64,000 nt of DNA from Bacteroidaceae bacterium. GTDB lineage: Bacteria > Bacteroidota > Bacteroidia > Bacteroidales > Bacteroidaceae. The notes under the pieces are model-generated. The model was not told the origin of the DNA and searched no databases. It saw only the letters and a list, made by a program, of their open reading frames with translations. Below, one piece after another: positions 2,651 through 57,683 of the stretch. Position numbers and translations under genes: made by a program. Each line of letters begins with the position of its first letter. The stretch's first letter is position 1. The DNA lies in assembly GCA_017442185.1 (NCBI GenBank), contig JAFSAT010000040.1:1-64000 (forward strand). The letters run 5' to 3'.

Positions 2651-3085
2651 CTACTCCTCGTAAAGTCGGACAATATGTTTTTTTGAAGGATAGGCATATA
2701 TGAAAGCCATCAAAGCTATAAGGGCAAGATACTCGGAGTTCAGCAGATTATCGGTAATAAAGAAAAACAGATTGACTGCAAACGCCGACATTGGAACAAT
2801 AAAACGTATTAAGCACGCTGTCTTATACTTTTTAATAATCATAGCTTTATCACCCTTGTCGATGTCGGCAAACAGCGTATCGCAACCCTTCACCGCCACA
2901 AACACCGATATTATCACCGTTGCAGCACACACTATCTGCATCATATATATAAGATTGGGATTATCACCCAATATTCCATGATTATAAAAATATAGTCCCG
3001 AAAGCGGTATCAAGCACATTAATACAGCTGCAACAATCCACGCTCTTTTCAGAAATCTGTTTATCTTTTGCTCAATATTCTGCAT
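2651..3085 (-). CDS. Small integral membrane protein of unknown function
   Basis: A 144-residue protein with four predicted membrane helices at about 15-34, 47-65, 91-110 and 117-133, and a charged central loop rich in Lys and Asp (70-88). I recognise no catalytic motif. It lies between recR and the GT2 gene, all on the minus strand, and is probably in the same transcription unit. Its start codon is preceded, 10 bases upstream, by a degenerate copy of the palindromic repeat arm also found next to metG and mutS. A helper role for the glycosyltransferase is only a guess from position. Confidence 0.7.
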   Translation of the reverse strand: MQNIEQKINRFLKRAWIVAAVLMCLIPLSGLYFYNHGILGDNPNLIYMMQIVCAATVIISVFVAVKGCDTLFADIDKGDKAMIIKKYKTACLIRFIVPMSAFAVNLFFFITDNLLNSEYLALIALMAFIYAYPSKKHIVRLYEE

Positions 3086-3094
3086 AATACATCA

Positions 3095-3135
3095 AGAAGC
3101 TGTTTTAATTTATAATCTTACGATTAAGTTGTTCT
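3095..3135. repeat. Degenerate copy of the AGAAGCTGTTTAAATTT palindromic element
   Basis: AAGAAGCTGTTTTAATTT at 3095-3112 differs from the arm seen at 21610, 31108 and 57529 by one T for A change. A weak inverse partner (ATTAAGTTGTTCT) follows at about 3124-3136. It lies in the leader of the 144-residue membrane protein gene. Confidence 0.5.
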
Positions 3136-19563: not shown

Positions 19564-21603
19564 TTATTTAATCTCACTGCCGGGCTTTGCCGCAGGCTCT
19601 ACTGTGAGCAAAGAGAGATTTCCTTCATTATCTTCGGCACTCAGTATCATGCCTTCGCTCACTATGCCGCGCATGGTACGCGGTGGCAGATTGGCTATAA
19701 AACACACCTGCTTGCCAACAAGCTCTTCGGGTTTAAAATGCTTTGCAATACCCGAGAGTATTGTACGTGTGGAGATACCGTCATCAATTTTAAATTGCAG
19801 CAGTTTGTCGGCTTTGGGCACCTTTGCACACTCAAGCACCGTTCCCACACGCATATCGAGCTTCAGAAAATCGTCGAAGCTGCACTCCTTGCGAATGGGG
19901 TTGGCCTTGTATGCAGCCGCTTCGTTCTCCTTTTTGATGCGTGCCAGACGGTCGAGCTGTGCCTGTATAGCATCGTCCTCTATCTTTTCAAAGAGAAGAG
20001 CAACCTCGCCCAACGTGTGTCCCTCGGGCAGAAGGTCGATACGTCCGAGGTTGTCCCATTTAAAGTTGTCGTATTGCAGCATTTCGCGCAACTTTTTGCT
20101 GCTGAAGGGGAGGAATGGTTCAAATGCAATTGACAGGTTGGCCACAAGTTGCAATGAGAGGTTCAGGATTGTTGCCACTCGGTCGAGGTCGCTCTTGGCA
20201 ATCTTCCAAGGCTCTGTTTCGGCAAGATAGCGGTTACCTATGCGAGCAAGATTCATCGCCTCTTTTTGTGCTTCGCGGAATTTAAACCTATCGAGAAGCT
20301 GCTCAACCTGCTCTTTTACCCCCATAAATTCGTCGATGATTCCCTTGTCGTAGTCGTTAAGACTGCCGCAGGCGGGCACTTTTCCTCCAAAGTATTTTTT
20401 TGTGAGCACAAGAGCACGGTTTACGAAATTGCCATACACTGCCACCAATTCGTTATTGTTGCGTGCCTGAAAATCTTTCCATGTGAAATTGTTATCCTTT
20501 GTCTCGGGAGCATTTGCCGTCAGCACATAGCGCAGCACATCCTGCTTGCCGGGAAAATCCACCAGATACTCGTTGAGCCACACAGCCCAATTGCGCGAGG
20601 TGGAGATTTTGTCATCCTCGAGGTTAAGAAATTCGTTGCTCGGGACATTATCGGGCAGCACGTAGTCGCCGTGAGCCTTAAGCATAGAGGGGAATACTAT
20701 ACAGTGGAACACTATATTATCCTTACCTATGAAATGCACAAGGCGTGTATCGTTGCTTTTCCACCATGTCTCCCATGTGTCGGGCAGAAGTTCTTTGGTG
20801 TTACTTATATAACCTATGGGAGCGTCGAACCACACGTAAAGCACTTTACCCTCAGCTCCTTCAACGGGCACCGGTATTCCCCAATTGAGGTCGCGTGTGA
20901 CGGCACGAGGTTTAAGCCCTGCATCGAGCCAGCTTTTGCATTGTCCATAGACATTGCCGCGCCACTCTTTATGCTCGTTTAGTATCCACTCTTCGAGCCA
21001 AGGCTGATAATGGTCGAGCGGCAGATACCAATGGCTTGTCTTGCGTTTCACAAGAACATTACCCGAATCGGCATTATAGGGATTTATAAGTTCGTCGGGC
21101 GAGAGTGTTGCTCCACATTTCTCGCATTGGTCGCCATAGGCCTCGGGAGCGTGGCAACGCGGACATTCGCCGCGAATATTGCGGTCGGTGAGAAATTGCT
21201 GCTCACCCTCGTCGTAATACTGTTCGCTCTCCATCTGCAGGAATTTGCCCTCGTCGTAGAGTTTCTTAAAGAAATCCGAAGCCAATTCCCGGTGCGTGTC
21301 CGAGGTTGTACGCGAATATACATCGAACGATATGCCGAACCCCTCGAAAGACTCCTTTATTATTTTGTGGTAACGGTCTACTACATCCTGCGGGGTGATA
21401 CCCTCTTTCTTGGCGCGTATTGTAACGGGCACACCATGCTCGTCGCTACCACCGATAAAGAGCACATCCTCGCCTTTCAGACGCAGGTAACGTACATAAA
21501 TATCGGCAGGAACATATACGCCGGCAAGGTGGCCGATGTGAACAGGGCCGTTGGCATAGGGAAGTGCCGATGTAACCAAAGTTCTTTTAAATTTCTTCTC
21601 CAT
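19564..21603 (-). CDS. metG: Methionyl-tRNA synthetase
   Basis: MetG charges tRNA-Met with methionine. At 679 residues it has the full bacterial architecture. The class I signature is H-I-G-H (22-25), and the zinc knuckle pairs are C-P-R-C and C-E-K-C near residues 145-165. The KMSKS loop appears as [10 protein letters not shown]-terminal EMAP-type tRNA-binding domain (about 575-679) contains D-M-R-V-G-T-V and P-R-T-M-R-G. The minus-7 box lies about 195 bases upstream, giving a long leader that contains a palindromic repeat ending six bases before the start. It heads the polysaccharide operon. Confidence 0.97.
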
Positions 21604-21609
21604 AAGATT

Positions 21610-21717
21610 AGAAGCTGTTTAAATTTCTAATAAATGTTTTCTTAATAGAAACTGTATTGTTTGTTTCGCCATTTTTGCTCTAAAAAATATTTGACGATAT
21701 AAATTTAAACAGTTTCT
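21610..21717. repeat. Palindromic dispersed element upstream of metG
   Basis: Arm AGAAGCTGTTTAAATTT at 21610-21626 and inverse arm AAATTTAAACAGTTTCT (one mismatch) at 21701-21717 enclose 74 bases. Read on the minus strand the interior matches the right part of the copy at 31108-31247 over about 45 bases with roughly four differences, so the two are copies of one element in opposite orientation. It lies in the metG leader. The rest of the gap 21604-22059 holds the metG minus-7 box, a single arm at 22032 and a terminator. Confidence 0.8.
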
Positions 21718-21798
21718 TATTTTATTTACTTTTTTACTCACACAAAATGTTGCAACACTCCGAGACGGCAAAAAGCCTCAGTTGCCACTTTCAAACTG

Positions 21799-21806
21799 CG
21801 AAGATA
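21799..21806 (-). promoter_or_regulatory. Minus-7 box of metG
   Basis: TATCTTCG on the minus strand, the same octamer as in the recR, engB and mutS promoters. No good minus-33 box is seen at the usual distance. Confidence 0.5.
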
Positions 21807-22031: not shown

Positions 22032-22048
22032 AGAAGCTGTTTAAATTT
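22032..22048. repeat. Single arm of the palindromic element
   Basis: Exact AGAAGCTGTTTAAATTT, without a recognisable inverse arm, lies between the stop codon of the BspA-like gene and its terminator. Confidence 0.7.
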
Positions 22049-31107: not shown

Positions 31108-31247
31108 AGAAGCTGTTTAAATTTATATCGCTAAATTTTCAAATAGAGCGAAAAAGAGATAAACAGACATTTTGTATATAAAAAATAGCAAAACGAACAA
31201 TACAGTTTCTCTTAAGAAAATATTTTTAAGAAATTTAAACAACTTCT
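31108..31247. repeat. Palindromic dispersed element between sdhC and the SEL1-protein gene
   Basis: Exact arm AGAAGCTGTTTAAATTT at 31108-31124 and inverse arm AAATTTAAACAACTTCT (one mismatch) at 31231-31247. It is 140 bp long. Its right part is homologous to the reverse complement of the element at 21610-21717, and it has about 30 extra bases in the middle. The gap 30966-31383 otherwise holds only the two divergent promoters. Confidence 0.8.
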
Positions 31248-49107: not shown

Positions 49108-50151
49108 ATGAGTACAACTAAAAGGATAGAATACATAGATGCTTTACGTGGTTTTACAATGATTCTGGTTGTTGTTTACCACATGTCGGCAACAATGTTC
49201 AATGTAACGGAAGAGACAACATCGTACAGTAACTACCTGTTTCAATTCAGAATGCCACTCTTCTTTTTCATAAGCGGCTTTGTGTTTTTCAAAAAAGAGC
49301 GAATATGGGATTTTGCAAACACCTGTTCATTCATAATGAAAAAGTTTAAGGTACAAATATTGTCTACGGCAATATTCTTTATACTTTTATTGCATATTGA
49401 GGATATATCACTTACAGAGGGTCTATTCAGCCGATACAAAAACGGTTATTGGTTCACTGTGACGCTGTTTGAATTCTTTTTGCTGCATATAGCATTGGAA
49501 CAAGGATGTAAACTGTTGAAATTAAAAAATATAGCAACAGATATTATAATATTTATCATAGGAATTGTATTCTTCAAGATACACAAGATTATGCTTATGC
49601 TTGGAGTAAGCGACAATATAATGGGACTGATAGGAATACCTCAATGGGAATTTTTCTCATATTTCATATTCGGTGTGCTTGCTCACAAATATTATACTAC
49701 ATTTGAACACATTCTCGATAATGGCATATTAGTTACACTGTCTATCTTGGCTTACTTCCTATTAAACATTTACCAAGACGCATATATACCTGCATCACTT
49801 CACAAAAACCTATGTATGATAATATACGGATATACAGGAATTATCATAGTATTTGCCATATTCCGAAAATACAGAGATAGATTTAAAAAGGAGAATACCT
49901 TAGGGAAATCATTACAATTTATAGGCAGAAGAACACTCGATATATATCTGCTGCACTTTTTCTTTATGCCCAAGGAGAGAATGCAAATTTTGCCAATACT
50001 TGATGAGATAAACATGCCGCTCATAGAATTTGGGTGCTCGATGCTGTTGGCTGCAATGGTTATATCAGGCTGCCTCATTGTAAGTTCGGCAATAAGGCTC
50101 AGTCCGCAGTTGGCACACTATCTGTTCGGAGCCAAAAAAGAGTACAAATAA
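49108..50151 (+). CDS. Acyltransferase 3 family membrane protein
   Basis: A 347-residue protein with about ten membrane helices. It starts I-E-Y-I-D-A-L-R-G-F-T-M, where the D-A-L-R-G block is the hallmark of the acyltransferase 3 family, and V-V-Y-H near residue 23 has the catalytic-type histidine. F-F-F-I-S-G-F-V follows in helix 2. These enzymes transfer acetyl or other acyl groups to surface sugars. No polysaccharide genes are adjacent (polA and ychF flank it), so the acceptor is unknown. Confidence 0.9.
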   Translation: MSTTKRIEYIDALRGFTMILVVVYHMSATMFNVTEETTSYSNYLFQFRMPLFFFISGFVFFKKERIWDFANTCSFIMKKFKVQILSTAIFFILLLHIEDISLTEGLFSRYKNGYWFTVTLFEFFLLHIALEQGCKLLKLKNIATDIIIFIIGIVFFKIHKIMLMLGVSDNIMGLIGIPQWEFFSYFIFGVLAHKYYTTFEHILDNGILVTLSILAYFLLNIYQDAYIPASLHKNLCMIIYGYTGIIIVFAIFRKYRDRFKKENTLGKSLQFIGRRTLDIYLLHFFFMPKERMQILPILDEINMPLIEFGCSMLLAAMVISGCLIVSSAIRLSPQLAHYLFGAKKEYK

Positions 50152-50207: not shown

Positions 50208-50278
50208 AAGAAGCTGTGTAAATTAAGCATAAAATTTAACCCATTCCAAATCCTAAATAAAATCAAAACAACTTCTTA
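50208..50278. repeat. Diverged short copy of the palindromic element upstream of ychF
   Basis: AAGAAGCTGTGTAAATT at 50208-50224 and AAAACAACTTCTTA at 50265-50278 resemble the two arms of the elements at 21610, 31108 and 57529 with several changes and a shorter interior. It lies just upstream of the ychF minus-7 box. Confidence 0.5.
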
Positions 50279-54895: not shown

Positions 54896-57523
54896 TCATT
54901 TTCCGCGTACTATACGTTTTATATCATTTAACTTGTTAAGTGCCTCCAATGGGGTGAGATTGTTGACATCTATACCAAGAATCTCGTCACGCACTTGTGA
55001 TAGTACAGGGTCATCAAGCTGGAAGAAACTGAGTTGCACTCCCTCTCGTGTATCGGAAATTTCGGATGTTGGAGCACTCTTCATCTCGCCACGATTACCC
55101 GAAGCTTCTAATTTTGCAAGAATCTGCTCGGAACGTCTGACTATACTCTTTGGCATTCCTGCCAATTTAGCCACATGAATACCGAAAGAGTGCTCACTAC
55201 CTCCGGGCATCAATTTACGCAGAAAAATAACTCGTCCGTCAATTTCTTTTACCGATACATTGAAATTTTTTATGCGTGGGAAACTATTCTCCATTTCGTT
55301 CAGTTCGTGATAGTGTGTGGCAAAGAGTGTACGTGCCCTACCCTTCTGTGATTCATGGATATGTTCCACTATGGCCCATGCAATAGACATTCCGTCGTAT
55401 GTGGATGTTCCGCGCCCAAGCTCATCGAACAACACAAGACTGTGTGCCGACAGATTGTTAAGAATATTCGCAGCCTCAGTCATCTCTACCATAAAGGTTG
55501 ATTCACCGGCCGAAATATTATCGCTTGCTCCAACGCGAGTAAAAATCTTATCGACAAGACCTATTGTGGCACTGTCGGCAGGTACAAAGCAACCTATCTG
55601 TGCAAGAAGAGTGATAAGTGCTGTCTGACGCAGAAGAGCCGATTTTCCGGCCATATTGGGACCTGTAACAATTATTATTTGCTGACGCTCGCTGTCAAGA
55701 TAAAGGTCGTTGGGAATATAACTTTCGCCTACCCCCATCTGACGCTCTATTACAGGATGACGCCCTTGCTTAATGTCTAACACATCACTCTCGGATATTA
55801 TCGGACGGATATATTTATATGCACGCGAAACATTGGCAAATGAGAGTAATACATCGAGACGTGCAAGATGCGCTGCGTCCATCTGAATAGAGGGAATATA
55901 ATCTACTATGGCTGTTATAAGTTCACTGTATATGCGACTTTCAAGGGACTGAATTTTCTCTTCGGCTCCAAGAATTTTTTCTTCATATTCCTTAAGCTCT
56001 TGCGTGATATAGCGCTCGGCATTCACAAGTGTCTGTTTGCGTATCCATTCATTTGGAACATTATCCTTGTAGGTATTACGCACCTCGATGTAATATCCAA
56101 AGACGTTATTGAATGATATTTTCAGACTTGGAATTCCTGTGCGCTCACTTTCACGCTGTTGGAGTTTCATCAGATAATCCTTGCCGTTATAGGCGATGGC
56201 ACGCAATTCGTCTAATTGCTCATCTACTCCATCGGCCACTACCCCACCTTTGTTTAAAAGAATAGGAGGCTCGGGAACAATCTCACGAGCTATTCTGTCA
56301 CGAATATCTGCACAACAATCGAGCTGTGCACCTATCTGCTTTAAAATAGCATTAGATGAAGCCTCACAGGCTTTTTTAACAGGCTCCACAGCCTGAAGCG
56401 CCACTTTCAACTGCACAAGTTCACGAGGAGAGACACGACCGGCTGCCACCTTTGATATAATACGCTCAAGGTCGCCCACCATGCGAAGTTGTTCCTCTAT
56501 TGTATCACTGAAATCCGGCTCACGGAAATAATACTCCACTATATCGAGACGCTCTTCAATTGGTTTTTTGTCTTTGAGAGGAAAAACCATCCAACGCTTG
56601 AGCAGGCGGGCACCCATTGCAGTTGTGGTACGGTCTATTACCGAGAGAAGCGATGTCCCCCCCTCATGCATGCTGCCAAGAAGTTCCAAACTTCTTATGG
56701 TAAATTTATCGAGACGTACATAGCGCTCTTCTTCGATGCGCGATATACTTCTTATGTGTGATATTTGCGAGTGCAACGTTACATTCAGATAGTGTAAAAC
56801 TGCTCCGGCAGCCACTACTCCACCGCGAAGATGCGAAATTCCGAAGCCTTTCAGATTCTTTGTCTCGAAGTGCTTTGTTAATTTTTCGTGCGCAAATTCC
56901 TCGGTAAAAACCCAGTCATCAAGTTCAAATACAAGATACTTATTACCGAAGCAATCCTCGAATCTACTCCTCATTCCACGCTCGAAAAGCACCTCCTTAG
57001 GACGAAAATTAATAAGTAATTTATCAATATAATCGAAAGTACCCTCGGCAACAAGAAATTCTCCGGTGGAAATATCCAAAAAAGATACTCCGCACATAGG
57101 TTTCCCAAAATGCACGGCAGCCAAAAAATTATTCTCTTTATAGTCAAGTACATTGTCGTTGATAGAGACACCGGGAGTAACAAGTTCTGTTATTCCGCGT
57201 TTCACTAATTTCTTAGTCAGTTTAGGGTCTTCGAGCTGGTCACAAATGGCTACACGCTTTCCTGCGCGTATTAATTTTGGCAGATAAGTGTCAAGTGCAT
57301 GAAAAGGAAAACCGGCCATTTCTATTACTGTGTTTGCCGCACCCTTACCGTTTGAACGTTTGGTAAGTGTGATACCTAATATTTCTGACGCCAATATAGC
57401 GTCGGCACAATAAGTCTCGTAAAAATCTCCGCAACGAAACAACATTATAGCATCGGGATGCTTGGCCTTCAGGTCGTAAAATTGTTTCATCATAGGAGTG
57501 AGAACCATATCTTTTTCTGCCAT
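54896..57523 (-). CDS. mutS: DNA mismatch repair protein MutS
   Basis: MutS recognises mismatches and starts methyl-independent or MutL-directed repair. The 875 residues contain the mismatch-reading F-Y-E motif in [10 protein letters not shown] (about 28-37) and the connector, lever and clamp domains. The ATPase has Walker A G-P-N-M-A-G-K-S, Walker [11 protein letters not shown] and the A-T-H-Y-H-E-L sensor. The C-terminal tail ends in a short helical region. Its leader contains the palindromic element at 57529, whose arm ends five bases before the start codon, and a minus-7 box lies beyond that. Confidence 0.97.
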
Positions 57524-57528
57524 ATATC

Positions 57529-57643
57529 AGAAGCTGTTTAAATTTCCGTCAATTATTTTACTTTTAAATTAAGAAGTTGCCTAATTTTTACTTTTATTTT
57601 AATTACCGCCTATTTTGATAGAGCATAAATTTAAACAGCTTCT
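57529..57643. repeat. Palindromic dispersed element upstream of mutS
   Basis: The arms AGAAGCTGTTTAAATTT (57529-57545) and AAATTTAAACAGCTTCT (57627-57643) are perfect inverted copies around 81 bases. The interior does not resemble those of the copies at 21610 and 31108. The gap 57524-57820 otherwise contains only the mutS and leuS minus-7 boxes. Confidence 0.85.
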
Positions 57644-57675: not shown

Positions 57676-57683
57676 CGAAGATA
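57676..57683 (-). promoter_or_regulatory. Minus-7 box of mutS
   Basis: TATCTTCG on the minus strand, about 150 bases before the mutS start, so the palindromic element would lie inside the transcribed leader. Confidence 0.5.

Follow-up and report, generated by a model that had tools for sequence, protein, structure and literature searches.

The closest described relatives of the repeat reported here are the IS5-type MITEs of P. gingivalis (BrickBuilt, MITEPgRS/464, MITE239 and MITE700), which come from the same bacterial order, are non-autonomous and lie in intergenic DNA (PMC4596501). Both sets have terminal repeats that match IS5-family elements, and the ISPg4 terminal inverted repeat (TIR), GAGACTGTTGCA, resembles our GAAGCTGTTTAAATTT; however, the P. 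gingivalis interiors are different and the copies number about 10 to 20, compared to well over 100 here, and BrickBuilt has features of its own, namely a minisatellite, irregular duplications and reported promoter activity (PMC4596501). MITECca01 of Cardinium, comparable to our repeat in spread, is likewise a Bacteroidota MITE, ~240 bp long, with 169 mostly intergenic copies from a lineage-specific burst, but it arose from an IS982-family element and its ends are unrelated (PMC9769881). The Bacteroidales IS5-family insertion sequences (NF033580; L145-L149) match our repeat both in their ends and in their TAA/TTA flanks; they are autonomous elements of ~900 bp that encode a transposase of about 255 to 290 aa, whereas the MITEs keep the ends only. 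Correia elements and RUP, also short mobile repeats found close to genes, can become part of leaders and alter expression, but they use TA targets and other transposase families.

The window, as we call the whole 64,000-nucleotide stretch of Bacteroidaceae DNA analyzed here, has the 17-mer AAATTTAAACAGCTTCT upstream of three genes on the minus strand: exactly at 57529-57545 and 21610-21626, and with one mismatch at 3095-3111. The distances to the ATG are 5 bases for mutS (ATG at 57521-57523), 6 for metG (21601-21603) and 9 for a 144-residue ORF (3083-3085). A sequence-only reading of the same DNA had pointed to this repeated arm near all three start codons, rightly, with distances that hold for mutS and metG and are one base too long (10) for the 144-residue ORF; it took the repeated placement as a sign of targeting or of selection for a control function. 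In our analysis the arm is very probably (probability about 0.92) one terminus of a small transposon, non-autonomous and present at high copy number: an IS5-derived MITE that settles between genes. It is a new family of a known kind, and on this reading a seemingly designed control element turns out to be a transposon family. Its copies in the window, with the neighboring genes and promoter boxes, are listed in Table 1.

Table 1. Copies of the MITE and its arms in the window, with associated genes and promoter boxes
Feature	Position	Strand	Remarks
Solo arm, one mismatch	3096..3111	-	no partner; 10 bp upstream of the 144-aa ORF
metG, 679 aa	19564..21603	-	
MITE copy, 106 bp, short class	21611..21716	.	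metG leader; TTA duplicated either side (21608-21610 and 21717-21719)
TATCTTCG box of metG	21799..21806	-	beyond the element
Solo arm, exact, no partner	22033..22048	-	near the 3' end of a 711-aa ORF
MITE copy, 138 bp	31109..31246	.	TAA duplicated either side; 143 bp and 101 bp to the neighboring start codons
Degenerate short copy, 66 bp	50210..50275	.	downstream of ORF 49108-50151
mutS, 875 aa	54896..57523	-	
Arm 5 bases before the mutS ATG	57529..57545	-	exact 17-mer
MITE copy, 113 bp	57530..57642	.	mutS leader; perfect 16-bp terminal inverted repeats (17 with flanking A/T); flanking triplets not identical
Partner arm of the mutS copy	57627..57643	+	exact inverted copy
TATCTTCG box of mutS	57676..57683	-	beyond the element; conserved in element-free orthologues

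The arm is far more abundant than chance would allow. Ten matches to the 17-mer with up to three mismatches occur in the window, against 0.46 expected by shuffling, and the 2.36-Mb Bacteroidales genome (50 contigs) holds 146 + 173 = 319 arm matches with up to two mismatches, compared to 0 + 2 for a reversed control pattern. Arms pair head-in, GAAGCTGTTTAAATTT...AAATTTAAACAGCTTC, as a terminal inverted repeat, and those before mutS and metG are one end each of such a pair. A recognizable partner was looked for at the arm at 3096 and none was found, so it is a solo arm; the copies starting at 22033, 31109 and 50210 lie away from start codons. Solo arms are common in this genome (223 strong arms versus 83 pairs; L031-L070, L093-L112 and L162-L181), implying that one end has often decayed or been deleted.

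The 83 paired elements, found in 1.58 Mb of this genome sampled as stretches, range in length from 41 to about 440 bp (442) and include classes of ~104 bp and 186 to 195 bp, along with shorter, decayed forms. Interiors can be aligned among members of one class or subfamily. In relatives of the same genus the lengths are tight (185 to 190 and 259 to 264 bp), several contigs start or stop at element ends, and the copies look younger than those of the window's genome. TNA flanks both ends in every one of the 17 pairs inspected in relatives, and the two triplets are identical in 12, where independence of the sides would give 7.2; in the window's genome they are identical in 24 of the 38 elements that are flanked by TNA at both ends (chance expectation, 18.5), a weaker duplication in copies that look older. 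Between arms lying 0.5 to 3 kb apart in the sampled DNA there was no transposase, and the elements themselves are too short to contain its gene. Arm copy number runs from 0 to 222 per genome across the genus and is 0 to 2 in other families of the order. Short length between TIRs, target-site duplication, high copy number, lineage-specific spread and the lack of an internal transposase gene are the marks of a MITE. The IS5, IS1031-type group is defined by a 3-bp TNA duplication, which is the duplication seen here. Rfam searches returned only a tRNA in the window and, for a long-class copy, nothing near the gathering score; a plasmid collection had no DNA match to the element.

The link to an IS5 parent is seen in a relative. 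Matches to PF13340 (DUF4096, transposase of IS4/5 families) are present in only two genomes of the genus. At L085 (G020:C110) the arrangement TTA-GAAGCTGTTTAAATTT, with an exact 16-bp TIR, lies ~115 bp before a transposase gene that is truncated after ~155 residues and whose protein matches PF13340 (2.6e-25), PF01609 (3.7e-10) and the NCBIfam IS5 family model NF033580 (132.6 bits; cut-off, 110). No transposase other than this truncated one was linked to the exact TIR; around the other PF01609 matches in the genus no matching pair of ends was found, and a PF13586 search found nothing. With the L085 protein as the query against 295 genomes of the order, we recovered complete IS5 elements of ~900 bp with related ends elsewhere in Bacteroidales, including L149 (TAA-GAGGCTGTTTAAATTT...AAATTTAAACAGCCTC-TTA) and L145 (TAA-GAAGCTGTTTTG...CAAAACAGTTTC-TAA), and a Bacteroides fragilis plasmid carries a transposase that is 68% identical and annotated as IS5 family. 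Ends held in common with IS5-family elements, exactly in L085 and similarly in L149 and others, identify the MITE as IS5-derived. An intact parental element was not found in the window's genome, where the single DDE_Tnp_1 match lacks these ends, so that the active source there is absent, lost or unassembled. We infer that an IS5-family transposase acting in trans would recognize the GAAGCTGTTTAAATTT ends and mobilize the MITE and that insertion would occur at TNA with duplication of those 3 bp. The copies survive almost exclusively in intergenic DNA.

The mutS and metG leaders can be compared with their orthologues. A TATCTTCG-type box is present in the mutS leader of 24 genomes of the genus, 28 to 64 bp before the ATG where the leader is element-free. 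No element lies between box and ATG in 22 of these leaders; it is present only in G000 and G007, whose copies (113 and 186 bp) have unlike interiors with little in common beyond the terminal repeats and are therefore separate insertions or replacements. The 186-bp copy of G007 (L185) sits between this conserved promoter box and the mutS ATG, stopping 7 bp short of the ATG. Computational removal of the element from the mutS leader returns the box-to-ATG spacing to the normal range. In G005 there is a weak arm upstream of the mutS boxes. For metG, one leader in 25 has the element, downstream of the box, and the other 24 have none. The conservation at orthologous leaders that marks a cis-regulatory RNA leader is thus not seen (2/24 for mutS, 1/25 for metG), and both copies are lineage-specific insertions. 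Together, mutS and metG in about 25 sister species provide a natural set of matched leaders, some with the element and most lacking it, for studying the tolerance of Bacteroidales for structured 5' leaders in the absence of Shine-Dalgarno assistance.

The sequence-only reading had placed the promoters of mutS and metG beyond the element, and the box conserved in orthologues bears this out; since that box lies beyond the element, the mRNA leader of both genes should contain the hairpin. Insertion would have spared the promoter while extending the leader to an estimated 146 to 189 nt, and the 3' arm of the long hairpin in it would end 6 to 7 nt before the AUG. The mutS leader with its element is predicted to form a long hairpin of -32.1 kcal/mol (z, -2.3), and the metG fold is less exceptional (z, -1.4). 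The AUG region has a predicted openness of 0.46 in mutS and 0.40 in metG, lower than the value of about 0.6 to 0.9 in most element-free orthologues. In both leaders, folding predicts that the element's 3' arm pairs near the AUG. The 144-residue gene has just a solo arm. In Prevotella bryantii, protein fell about five-fold when a structure of -5.2 kcal/mol lay in the start-proximal region, whereas a hairpin 20 bp upstream was not inhibitory (PMC3155529). Because start-proximal structure lowers translation in that species, the element may plausibly dampen translation of mutS and metG, as a side effect of having inserted there.

If the element carried outward promoters, transcripts would start inside it and the arm would be promoter-proximal leader; TAnnTTYG boxes are somewhat more numerous in the elements than in shuffles (45 versus 28.7; shuffle maximum, 44), and the P. 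gingivalis MITE BrickBuilt carries promoters (PMC4596501). However, a TTG-plus-TAnnTTYG pair at plausible spacing is found in just 7 of 83 elements, and those before mutS and metG have no sense TAnnTTYG box, with the boxes beyond them intact, which makes such promoters very unlikely.

It is very unlikely that the leader hairpin has been retained to regulate translation of mutS, metG and other genes. The promoters beyond the element, the stable mutS fold, the reduced AUG openness of both leaders and the P. bryantii precedent (PMC3155529) would all suit a selected control element, but the passive cost of an insertion predicts the same folding. Moreover, almost no orthologous leader has the element, the metG z-score is just -1.4, there is no excess of placement near starts (see below), and the affected genes have no common function. 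A special case, in which the MITE in the mutS leader naturally and reversibly turns mismatch repair down in two species with unlike copies, perhaps with structure added by an interior hairpin of the long class that host or transposase recognizes, we regard as similarly improbable. If it were true, a hairpin 6 to 7 nt before the AUG would lower MutS and raise the mutation rate in those lineages.

Placement was assessed in the 1.58-Mb sample, in which a home-made hexamer model called 1148 genes (88.7% coding; start positions carry error). As the null, each gap was rebuilt without its element and the position was re-drawn uniformly over the TNA sites of that gap. No called gene contains any of the 83 paired elements. 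Among 71 start-adjacent elements, 9 fall 6 to 12 bp from the start compared to 6.9 expected (P=0.20), 6 at 13 to 22 bp compared to 8.1, and 9 at 23 to 40 bp compared to 10.9, and the other bins fit too. Elements per gap type (5'3'/3'5'/5'5'/3'3') number 27/23/21/8, for a TNA supply of 0.30/0.31/0.28/0.12. A depletion 23 to 40 bp from starts (P=0.036) in the first part of the sample vanished in the larger one.

That a transposase or host factor steers the element to start-proximal sites is highly improbable on these figures. Three window copies within 10 bp of an ATG, the slight surplus in the 6- to 12-bp bin and the unlike copy 7 bp before mutS in a second species (G007) are what targeting would predict, but that surplus matches random TNA sites in the same gaps, the next bin is under expectation, gap-type usage follows TNA supply, and the stop-codon side clusters at least as much (10 versus 5.9, P about 0.05). 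The sequence-only reading had named the lack of a genome-wide preference for start-proximal positions as an outcome that would refute its proposal, and within the power of 71 elements no significant preference is seen. Since placement fits the TNA null, the start-proximal pattern is the expected outcome of gap-restricted random insertion, at a resolution of about twofold enrichment with 71 elements, and in a compact AT-rich genome closeness to start codons needs no targeting. Bacteroidales leaders are short and AT-rich (about 30 to 70 nt from promoter box to ATG), and some copies will necessarily end up just a few bases from a start codon.

Finally, a host regulatory operator, an inverted-repeat binding site rather than a transposon, would explain inverted arms close to starts but is almost certainly wrong, given arm spacings of 41 to about 440 bp, length classes with common interiors, TNA flanks, an IS5 transposase gene next to an identical terminal repeat, and 0 to 222 copies depending on the species.

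At the other end of genes, an apparent clustering at 3' ends (18 versus 4.3) came largely from a null that omitted the stop codon; with the stop codon included it falls to the 10 of 54 versus 5.9 noted above. Some elements sit on stop codons (e.g., L035:19524 and L046:2633). A TTA/TAA target that overlaps the stop regenerates it, either as TA plus G, from a target-site duplication ending in TA and the element's first G, or as an intact TAA, and the protein is therefore spared.

In the long class an interior hairpin, CATAG-CCCG-CTATG, is conserved and in most copies lies ~92 bp from one end (e.g., L040:3070-3259, L118:1501-1686 and L032:18500-18687). It is present in most 185- to 195-bp copies and most longer forms and is common to subfamilies whose interiors otherwise differ. 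Its stem shows paired changes from one subfamily to another (CGTAG/CTACG and AATAG/CTATT); pairing at four stem positions exceeds all 1000 column shuffles, although the independent events are few. The hairpin has no Rfam match and is perhaps a binding site for transposase or host. A role as a terminator was judged unlikely by inspection, with T runs before the stem and A runs after it. Longer forms of 259 to 264 and 410 bp in relatives (L114, L120, L128, L134 and L140) have the same ends, and their hairpin mostly lies at an unchanged distance from one of them, apparently reflecting insertions within one half of the element.
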